Assembly (NCBI GenBank): GCA_020831885.1
Contig: JAFIFU010000002.1
Span: 1 to 64,000 of the forward strand
Direction: 5' to 3'
Source of the DNA: Ectothiorhodospiraceae bacterium
GTDB lineage: Bacteria > Pseudomonadota > Gammaproteobacteria > Nitrococcales > Aquisalimonadaceae
Length of the DNA: 64,000 nucleotides
Below, piece by piece: positions 54,371 through 56,854 of this stretch (within the stretch, counting starts at the first letter, position 1; the number at the start of each line of letters is the position of its first letter). The position numbers were made by a program, and so were the translations under genes. The notes under the pieces are model-generated. The model made no database searches. It worked only from the letters and a program-made list of their open reading frames with translations, and was not told where the DNA came from.

Positions 54371-54625
54371 ATGGTCATCCACCTGCTGCTCTACGGAACC
54401 GACGGCTGTCACCTCTGTGAGGAGGCTGCGCGTCTGGTGCATGAAGCGCTTTCCGAGTACGACGTCACGGTTCAGGAGATCGATATCGTGGAAGATTCGG
54501 CATTGTTGAACCGCTACGGGCAACGGATCCCCGTGATCCGGCGTGTGGGCGCCATGGAGGAACTGTCCTGGCCCTTCGACCGCGCCGACCTGGTCCGCCT
54601 TGCCCGGACACGGCCCTTTGCCTGA
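54371..54625 (+). CDS. Glutaredoxin-family protein
   Basis: This 84-residue protein has a thioredoxin-like fold with CHLC (GTDGCHLCEEAARL) in place of CPYC, the EIDIVEDSALLNRYGQRIPV segment with a cis-proline, and a C-terminal helix. It resembles the DUF836/glutaredoxin 2-like group. It should act as a cytosolic thiol-disulfide oxidoreductase. A gene for an L,D-transpeptidase, another thiol enzyme, starts 15 bp downstream. Confidence 0.82.
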   Translation: MVIHLLLYGTDGCHLCEEAARLVHEALSEYDVTVQEIDIVEDSALLNRYGQRIPVIRRVGAMEELSWPFDRADLVRLARTRPFA

Positions 54626-54640
54626 TAGCGAGTACCCTCG

Positions 54641-55189
54641 ATGATCCGATTGTTCCTGCTGATTGCCGCGCTGCTCATCCCGTACGCCGTCCCCGCCAGT
54701 GATAACGGCAACACCTGGCTACTGGTGGAGACCGAGCAACGGCGCCTGCACGTCTATCAGGGGGACACGCCGGTGCTTGAGATCTCCCAGGTGGCGCTCG
54801 GGCGTGGCGGAGCCGCTCCGGACCGCTTGCGCGGTGATCGACGAACCCCTAAGGGCGAGTTCCGCATCGCCTGGGTAAACCATGAGAGCCAGTACCACAT
54901 CTTCCTGGGCCTGGATTACCCAACCTTTCAACACGCGCGGCGCGCCTACGCCGCCGGCCGCATCACACTGGACGAGTTCCTGGCCGTGACCGACGCCATC
55001 CGGGCGGGTCGACTGCCACCGCAACGCACCCAGCTCGGCGGTCACATCGGTCTGCACGGGCTGGGCGCGGCCGATCCGGATATCCACCGCATCGCGGACT
55101 GGACACAGGGCTGCATTGCCATGACCGATGAGGAGATCGAGCAGCTCGCCAATCTGGTGGGTATCGGTACCCGTGTCGTGGTCCGCTGA
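54641..55189 (+). CDS. L,D-transpeptidase (YkuD), short form
   Basis: The 182-residue exported protein has a signal peptide (LFLLIAALLIPYAVPASD) and a single YkuD domain: WLLVETEQRRLHVYQGD, GDRRTPKGEFRI, HIGLHGLG and the catalytic WTQGCIAMTDEEI, where TQ replaces the usual SH before GC. Such enzymes form 3-3 crosslinks in peptidoglycan or attach lipoproteins to it. It lies on the same strand as, and 188 bp before, the Braun-type lipoprotein gene. Confidence 0.85.
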   Translation: MIRLFLLIAALLIPYAVPASDNGNTWLLVETEQRRLHVYQGDTPVLEISQVALGRGGAAPDRLRGDRRTPKGEFRIAWVNHESQYHIFLGLDYPTFQHARRAYAAGRITLDEFLAVTDAIRAGRLPPQRTQLGGHIGLHGLGAADPDIHRIADWTQGCIAMTDEEIEQLANLVGIGTRVVVR

Positions 55190-55289
55190 ACGGCCACACC
55201 GCGGAACCCGCTGGGAATAATGACCCTTTCGCAGGCCCTCCGCCCTTGAAAAATCCGACAAACGGTTTAATGCTAAGTAAAGCGGGCAC

Positions 55290-55318
55290 TTTTCAATCCG
55301 CTTTTCTATGCATAGAAT
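55290..55318 (+). promoter_or_regulatory. Candidate promoter of the Lpp-like gene
   Basis: TTTTCA (55290-55295), 17 bp and TAGAAT (55313-55318) lie 60 bp before the ATG. A perfect 12-bp palindrome TCTATGCATAGA (55305-55316) overlaps the -10 box. Another possible -35 (TTGAAA, 55246) lies further up. A strong promoter is expected for such an abundant lipoprotein. Confidence 0.5.
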
Positions 55319-55377
55319 GTGCACGAGCTGCCGTTCATGAAGTTCGGCGCGACAACAAAACCGAAAGGAGATGCCAA

Positions 55378-55665
55378 ATGTCCGATAGCCTGAAGAATCT
55401 GCTGAAGATCTCTGCCCTGGGTGCTTCCATGGCTTTTGTGGTTGGCTGCGCGACCGGCGCAAGTGACGAACAAGTGGCCATGATCGAAGACGCGCAGGCC
55501 AAGGCTGAAGAAGCGCTTGCTGTGGCGCACGAAGCCCGCGAGACCGCTCTGGACGCGGAAGGCACCGCCAACGCCGCGCAGTACCAGGCCAACCGCAACA
55601 GCAGCCGGATCGACGAACTGAATGAGAAAATCGACCGGATGTTCGAGCGCTCCATGACCAAGTAA
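55378..55665 (+). CDS. lpp: Braun-type (Lpp/OprI-like) alanine-zipper lipoprotein
   Basis: AAAGGAGATG before ATG 55378 is the strongest ribosome site in this area. The 95-residue product has lipobox VVGC (cysteine 24) and then an alanine-rich heptad coiled coil (AQAKAEEALAVAHEARETA) ending MFERSMTK. The terminal lysine is the residue that Ldt enzymes link to peptidoglycan in E. coli Lpp and Pseudomonas OprI. It should be a trimeric outer-membrane tether. L,D-transpeptidase genes flank it on both sides. A classic terminator follows. Confidence 0.9.
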   Translation: MSDSLKNLLKISALGASMAFVVGCATGASDEQVAMIEDAQAKAEEALAVAHEARETALDAEGTANAAQYQANRNSSRIDELNEKIDRMFERSMTK

Positions 55666-55680
55666 AACGCACGAAATCAG

Positions 55681-55710
55681 AAAAACCCCGCCTCATGGCG
55701 GGGTTTTTTT
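55681..55710 (+). terminator. Intrinsic terminator of the Lpp-like gene
   Basis: AAAAA-CCCCGCC-tcat-GGCGGGG-TTTTTTT is a textbook terminator 15 bp after the lpp stop. The A-run before the stem gives weaker function in the opposite direction too, serving the convergent L,D-transpeptidase gene. Confidence 0.95.
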
Positions 55711-55822
55711 ATGTCTTGAATTAACGACAATTGATACAGGGGGTACTGTCATCTATCAACAACAGTATTCCGGGCGGGATCTTTTCCCATCGATTCATCG
55801 AATAAGGAGGATCCGAACCAGC

Positions 55823-56854
55823 CTATCCGCTGGAAACCATTTCCGGTCGAATTTCCGATTGTCGGCTCACGCTGCGAGGCAATCCATCCGCCGTGTTCAC
55901 CACGGCCTTTAGTCGCTCGTAATCAATGCGGCCGGGCCGATCCTCCAGACGGGCCGCCACCGCCCGTACGGCGGATGCATAGGTCCCCACTTCCTGACCC
56001 TGATGCTCGTCCAGAACGGGATATGCCTGAACCAGCAGCTCGCCGGCAAACCAGCCGGCCTTGTAGGGCTGGTTTATGATGCGAACTTCGGTGCCAATTG
56101 GAAGGCGATACACCAGGGATTCGATATCCTCCGGATACATGCGAATGCAGCCATGGGTGGCGCGCATCCCGATGCCATATGGACGGTTCGTCCCGTGAAT
56201 GAAATAACCGGGAACGTTCAGACCAATGGCGTATTGGCCCAAAGGATTGTCGGGGCCCGGATCGATACGCCGGGGCAGCGTGCGGCCCTCCGCGGCATGC
56301 CGCGCCCGGACGGACTCCGGCGGGAACCAGGCCGGATTCTCGATCCGGTTGGTAACCCGATGGGTGCCGATGGGCGTATTCCAGTCCATCCGGCCGATAC
56401 TCACGGCATACGTCTCCACCACCCGCGGCTGCCCGGGTTTCGGCTCCGGGTAGAAGTAGATCCGCATTTCCGGCAGGTTCACCACCAGGCCTCTGCGGGG
56501 TCCGGGCGGCAGGATGAAGCGGGTGGGAATCACGATCTCCGTGTCCTCCCCCGGCATCCAGATATCCACGCCCGGGTTGGCCATCCGCATGGCCTCGAAG
56601 CCCACGCCATAGCGGCGCCCGATATCCAGCAAGGTATCCTCGGGACGTGCCTGGATGATCTGGATTTCCCCGATGACGTCCACATCCTTGGGCGGCAGCG
56701 GGAACACACTTCGCTTGAGGGCTTCGGGAGCAGCGGCCCCATCGGCAAGCTCATCCCCTTCGAGCTCTGCGTCGTCAGCCCGGAGCAATGACGGCAACAG
56801 CAGGCAAGCCGCCGCTGCCGTCATCGTCTGTGCGAGAAATCGGCGTCGCTTCAT
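55823..56854 (-). CDS. L,D-transpeptidase (ErfK/YbiS-like), long form
   Basis: The 343-residue protein starts MKRRRFLAQTMTAAAACLLL, a twin-arginine-like signal. An N-terminal LysM-like peptidoglycan-binding part (IQIIQARPEDTLLDIGRRYG, VDIWMPGEDTEIVIPTRFIL) is followed by a YkuD domain (VVNLPEMRIYFYPEP, GRMDWNTPIGTHRV, PGYFIHGTN) with catalytic ATHGCIRMYPEDI. This architecture is that of E. coli ErfK/YbiS/YcfS, which attach Lpp to peptidoglycan. It faces the lpp gene convergently. Confidence 0.92.
   Translation of the reverse strand: MKRRRFLAQTMTAAAACLLLPSLLRADDAELEGDELADGAAAPEALKRSVFPLPPKDVDVIGEIQIIQARPEDTLLDIGRRYGVGFEAMRMANPGVDIWMPGEDTEIVIPTRFILPPGPRRGLVVNLPEMRIYFYPEPKPGQPRVVETYAVSIGRMDWNTPIGTHRVTNRIENPAWFPPESVRARHAAEGRTLPRRIDPGPDNPLGQYAIGLNVPGYFIHGTNRPYGIGMRATHGCIRMYPEDIESLVYRLPIGTEVRIINQPYKAGWFAGELLVQAYPVLDEHQGQEVGTYASAVRAVAARLEDRPGRIDYERLKAVVNTADGLPRSVSRQSEIRPEMVSSG

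Follow-up and report, generated by a model that had tools for sequence, protein, structure and literature searches.

Outer-membrane tethering is dynamic in E. coli, and the peptidoglycan-Lpp amidase DpaA (YafK, LdtF) hydrolyzes at least half of the Lpp bonds per generation (PMC11449479). Lys83 of this enzyme is essential, the Ala mutant being inactive (PMC10653827), and it is conserved in the DpaA homologue of Legionella (PMC13400389). In this organism the release gene is not close to lpp, and since cells without it look nearly normal, the purpose of release is hard to test. In P. aeruginosa, the lipoprotein OprI is anchored by LdtPae2, and LdtPae3, a protein with a hydrolase motif, produced neither of the two bonds in E. 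coli and was tentatively assigned to release (PMC10434034). In YkuD transpeptidases the second residue after the catalytic Cys (Cys+2) is an Arg, DpaA-like amidases have Ala or Asn at this position, and the carboxypeptidases lack the Arg (PMC8263019, PMC10653827). A third of the genomes with Lpp are said to have no DpaA-like protein (PMC8263019).

In the lpp-ldtE locus of E. coli and the oprI locus of Pseudomonas, the lipoprotein gene is convergent with the gene of a GCxR transpeptidase, and the same arrangement was found in the locus described here. Unlike those two loci, it also has a short YkuD gene, apparently of the hydrolase type, upstream of the lipoprotein gene and adjoining it. This differs from the distant dpaA of E. 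coli and from the LdtPae3 gene, which is not beside oprI in the one Pseudomonas genome examined. Tethering loci of this kind are already known; a lipoprotein-linked YkuD enzyme of the putative release type appears to be a variant for which no earlier report was found in the open-access literature.

Organization of the Locus

The locus lies in a window of 64,000 nucleotides (the whole stretch of DNA analyzed) from an Ectothiorhodospiraceae bacterium. The original prediction placed an alanine-zipper lipoprotein ending in lysine between a short and a long YkuD enzyme, and all three reading frames were confirmed. The short periplasmic YkuD protein (54641..55189, plus strand; 182 aa; PF03734, 2.9e-19) has a signal-peptide-like N-terminus, and its gene is followed after 188 bp by that of the Braun/OprI-type lipoprotein (55378..55665, plus strand; 95 aa precursor, 72 aa when mature from Cys24). 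The long L,D-transpeptidase, of the LdtE/ErfK kind, is encoded on the minus strand (56854-55823; 343 aa; PF03734, 5.1e-23), convergently with the lipoprotein.

The translated lipoprotein contains the lipobox FVVGC24 and ends in RSMTK. It matched the Lpp/OprI family model NF040598 with 66.2 bits (cut-off 43) and the Pfam family PF11839 with 50.4 bits (2.8e-13; cut-off 23.1), and it is the single alanine-zipper lipoprotein above cut-off in its genome, in agreement with the proposal of a compact tethering locus. Lys95 (codon 55660-55662), its last residue, is presumed to be the point of attachment to peptidoglycan. A terminal Lys was found in 47 of 47 linked relatives in the class-wide sample described below, and all of the lipoproteins recovered from 40 loci of relatives end in Lys. 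The length of the alanine zipper differs among the relatives' reading frames (loci L038-L073), whose precursors range from about 89 to about 106 aa, and species presumably differ in tether length as a result.

An AAAGGAG ribosome-binding-like site (55364..55370, plus strand) can be read before the ATG of the lipoprotein gene. The terminator-like stem with a T tail found between the two convergent genes (55690..55704, plus strand) suits a terminator of the lipoprotein gene by its position, and a single stem in the region is no more than was obtained in shuffled sequences. A promoter-like site 5' of the lipoprotein gene was likewise not above chance expectation. On the other side of the short gene, a glutaredoxin-like DUF836 protein (54371..54625, plus strand; PF05768, 7.8e-18) is encoded by a gene that stops 15 bp before it, and the two genes are probably co-transcribed. 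Within the order, most relatives keep this neighbor next to the short gene; in the Halomonas loci no such neighbor was detected. The DUF836 protein has no signal peptide, and no role in tethering is assumed for it.

The long enzyme carries the motif THGCIRM (Cys236), which fits [ST]xGCxR. Its best NCBIfam model was LdtE, with 177 bits and under the cut-off of that model, and by profile it matched full-length solved L,D-transpeptidases (9tyw, 1e-109; 4lzh, 3.5e-66). It is presumed to be the lipoprotein-attaching enzyme. The LysM domain that had been assigned to it was not recovered by Pfam at E<=10, a search in which the LysM of E. coli LdtE scores 1.4e-8. In the AlphaFold model, however, residues 64-110 fold as a beta-alpha-alpha-beta module, and over its entire length the chain matches the full-length Klebsiella L,D-transpeptidase 4lzh; the protein therefore likely carries a LysM-like module that has diverged. 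The N-terminus of the long enzyme (56854-55823), MKRRRFLA, is a Tat-like signal, the chain opening with the twin-arginine-like MKRRRFLAQTMTAAAACLLLP, and a Sec signal is usual in the family.

Conservation of the Linkage in Gammaproteobacteria

The gene order TatD-DusA-glutaredoxin-short-Lpp-long-Nudix was largely kept in the 40 loci of relatives. A named set of 80 loci from Halomonas, Ectothiorhodospiraceae, Methylococcaceae, Chromatiaceae and others was collected with the short enzyme as the sole query; 79 of them contained an Lpp match and 69 the long gene, and the lipoprotein gene was usually directly downstream of the short gene (median gap 178 bp). Since this set is rich in Halomonas, the linkage was recounted in 369 gammaproteobacterial genomes drawn evenly, with 88 short-type genes. 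Lpp was encoded within 3 kb of the short gene for 44 of 45 homologues at 200 bits or more, 6 of 13 at 180-200 bits and none of 30 below 180 bits, so the proximity on which the original prediction depended is conserved. Both genes of the linked pairs were on the same strand in 50 of 50 cases, with Lpp directly downstream in 46. Two genomes (G315 and G411) have two short-Lpp pairs each, with every short gene beside its own Lpp. The linked loci with family labels span 25 families, a lower bound for Gammaproteobacteria, and the linkage is far beyond chance.

The explanation that the proximity is merely a local arrangement passed down in a single order was considered and rejected: outside the order of this bacterium, DusA and glutaredoxin upstream, as well as TatD and Nudix, were mostly undetected, and the short-Lpp pair stays together. 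When the short gene was elsewhere or absent, Lpp was still convergent with a GCxR enzyme gene in 37 of 40 loci. As this pair is found without the short gene in E. coli and Pseudomonas alike, the ancient unit consists of substrate and transpeptidase, and it is older and wider than the linkage to the short gene. According to the tree, the short gene appears to have joined, or stayed with, this unit in one clade (support 86/87).

Two further observations concern the arrangement and origin of these clusters. In seven loci (L083, L085, L086, L107, L248, L250 and L263) the order was Lpp, convergent long gene and then short gene, with the cluster kept. Locus L080 (JAFIEO010000029.1), filed under a Rhodobacteraceae metagenome bin, carries the gammaproteobacterial cluster in full, with 71% identity, and its assignment is probably a binning error.

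The Short Enzyme as a Probable Lipoprotein-Release Enzyme

The short enzyme has the motif WTQGCIAM, with Cys158 (codon 55112-55114) as catalytic residue. Its altered motif had been taken as a hint of a division of labor between the two enzymes. The hint is supported, the informative residue being the Ala after GCI and not the Thr-Gln before GC; the residues at the latter place are SIGC in DpaA and SHGC or THGC in transpeptidases. The Cys+2 Arg that marks transpeptidases is replaced by Ala160, with Ala in 47 of 47 linked homologues, and C158, A160, G137 and W154 are invariant among homologues of the short enzyme. In the tree, GCxA enzymes were split from GCxR enzymes by a branch with support 95/90, two long-branch rows aside (LdtD and long_L056), which were misplaced or badly trimmed and were left out of the interpretation.

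A phmmer search of the PDB with the single short-enzyme sequence gave no match, so a profile was needed. By profile, the nearest solved chain was DpaA (8ikr, E=2.8e-7), followed by Pgp2, Bd1075 and then YkuD. The Ala at Cys+2, together with DpaA as the nearest solved relative, leads us to read the short enzyme as a candidate for release and not for 3-3 cross-linking, and we consider it reasonably probable that it releases the lipoprotein. Of the roles first proposed, linking, 3-3 cross-linking and release, the last fits this enzyme best and is favored by the Cys+2 Ala, and the 3-3 cross-linking reading loses ground to an LdtD-like candidate elsewhere in the genome.

Like DpaA, the short enzyme is a periplasmic protein with a single YkuD domain, Ala at Cys+2 and an aromatic residue at the position of Tyr109 (Tyr85; F or Y in 45 of the 47 linked homologues, W in two). 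It differs in having no DpaA C-terminal tail and in keeping neither Lys83 nor Tyr131. A gap-free local alignment (G-x-x-G to GD) places Asp61 at the Lys83 position, adjoined by Arg62, and most of the linked short proteins have a basic residue one position after this site. Lys itself was found there in 9 of 47 linked homologues, 32 of 33 unlinked ones and 19 of 19 LdtPae3-like proteins. The Tyr131 position is His135 (Tyr in 16 of the 47). Because Lys83 was looked for and is absent, the short enzyme was not filed as DpaA; by its sequence it is not a plain DpaA, though it probably works like one. LdtPae3 (166 aa, DWTEGCIAL) resembles the short enzyme in motif and size class, but retains equivalents of Lys83 and Met133 that the short enzyme lacks. 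Between DpaA residues 118 and 129, linked and unlinked members of the short family alike have a stretch of 40 residues, compared with 17 in LdtPae3 and 12 in DpaA. In the AlphaFold model of the short enzyme (pLDDT 93.6) this insertion forms two helices, 96-104 and 110-121.

Several observations stand against release, among them Asp61 in place of Lys83, His135 in place of Tyr131, and structural matches in which Pgp2 (Z 15.4 over 128 residues) and YkuD 1y7m (14.8) rank above DpaA (11.8), although the Z scores do not separate the hydrolase and transpeptidase classes for this model. The aligned length was 120-128 residues with Pgp2, Bd1075 and DpaA, and about 110 with transpeptidases.

If the release reading is correct, the locus would be an outer-membrane tether-and-release module. 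The long enzyme (GCIR) would take a tetrapeptide stem of peptidoglycan, from which D-Ala4 leaves, and would then link the carboxyl group of mDAP3 to the side chain of the C-terminal Lys of the lipoprotein. The short enzyme (GCIA) would use the same Cys chemistry with water as the acceptor, reopening the mDAP-Lys bond and freeing the lipoprotein, as DpaA does in E. coli and as LdtPae3 probably does in Pseudomonas, the assignment of the latter being itself tentative. We infer in this scheme the activities of both enzymes, the direction of the reactions and the substrate.

Moreover, the linked short proteins could be a class of their own, dedicated to lipoprotein release and reading the bond in another way than DpaA: the mDAP-binding Lys, conserved elsewhere, would have disappeared or moved by one residue, and the two-helix insertion could recognize the conserved C-terminus of the lipoprotein; this proposal is tentative, and we rate its chances below even. 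The C-terminal pattern RxF..[ST]MxK was present in 33 of 47 lipoproteins with a linked short enzyme, 3 of 32 with an unlinked one and 4 of 20 without a short enzyme, an enrichment that may point to joint change of the enzyme and its substrate but is confounded by ancestry. If such a class exists, substrate, attaching enzyme and releasing enzyme side by side would set tether density at a single locus.

Alternative Functions of the Short Enzyme

An unlikely alternative, which nevertheless survives best, is that the short enzyme acts as an L,D-carboxypeptidase converting tetrapeptides into tripeptides, which would leave fewer donors for tethering and control attachment indirectly. The carboxypeptidases Pgp2, Csd6 and Bd1075 are its best structural matches and likewise lack the Cys+2 Arg, and Pgp2 was first by structure and second by profile. 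The Trp of their D-Ala pocket (at the DpaA Met133 position) is replaced by Gly137, with Gly in 47 of 47 linked proteins, and this argues against ordinary D-Ala trimming. Furthermore, a chain of 182 aa, much shorter than theirs, leaves no space for the C-terminal domain of Pgp2 and Csd6 (chains of 287-339 residues), and tight linkage to a lipoprotein would be unexpected for a general trimming enzyme.

Less likely again is that the short enzyme hydrolyzes another bond or releases another peptidoglycan-attached protein, its location reflecting shared regulation or inherited order. The replacement of the essential DpaA Lys in the linked group may mean a different substrate, and DpaA-like proteins also occur in species without Lpp (PMC8263019). 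Nevertheless, Lpp accompanies the short family in 81 of 85 genomes, even where the genes sit far apart, and the short-Lpp pair was duplicated together in two genomes.

It is quite improbable that the short enzyme is a transpeptidase, either a second lipoprotein-attaching enzyme or one that adds another acceptor, with the long enzyme as the cross-linker. In favor of this reading, YkuD 1y7m aligns nearly as well in structure, and 3-3 cross-linking is the role assigned to E. coli LdtE, which is the lpp neighbor and the family that the long enzyme matches best. Against it, the Cys+2 Arg is replaced by an invariant Ala, neither bond was made in E. coli by LdtPae3, which shares the motif (PMC10434034), and a separate LdtD-like enzyme is present for 3-3 bonds.

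Co-occurrence with Lpp and Other YkuD Genes

Counts over whole genomes also favor release of the lipoprotein, the reading preferred here. In the 369-genome sample, the 85 genomes that carry the short family included 81 with an Lpp match, compared with 32 among the 284 that lack it. With a profile of the LdtPae3/DpaA type, matches of at least 130 bits were obtained in 31 genomes. The 113 Lpp genomes comprised 4 with both types, 77 with the short family only, 17 with the LdtPae3 type only and 15 with neither; the two types thus exclude each other (Fisher p 3e-8, uncorrected for phylogeny), LdtPae3 occurring in Lpp genomes without the short family. This mutual avoidance is the outcome that functional replacement predicts. 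The sampling was even over many families, and the co-occurrence figures are uncorrected for shared ancestry. Part of the Lpp genomes without a DpaA-like protein may use the short family instead. Additionally, the tentative assignment of LdtPae3-type proteins to release is supported independently, on genomic grounds, by the linkage. In at least 25 families the candidate release gene is physically linked to the genes of the substrate and of the attaching enzyme, and these bacteria offer natural systems for the clean removal of release.

The genome of the bacterium itself has four YkuD genes: the short one, the long one, a 549-aa LdtD/YcbB-like gene (SSGCIR) and a 171-aa gene (SKGCIRM). A profile of LdtPae3 and DpaA found no match in this genome at E<=1e-8; a single E. 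coli DpaA query also gave none, a search that had no positive control and says little. The 549-aa enzyme is a candidate 3-3 cross-linker by its sequence type. The 171-aa protein (L003:1462-1977, contig C69) has no evident signal peptide and is encoded directly before a nagZ-like reading frame; it resembles the recycling enzyme ElsL and may, despite its SKGCIRM motif, act in the cytoplasm as an L,D-carboxypeptidase of recycling. With one candidate each for cross-linking, recycling and attachment, the fourth role is left to the short enzyme. A protein similar to the 171-aa one is also present in the Pseudomonas genome examined (L162).
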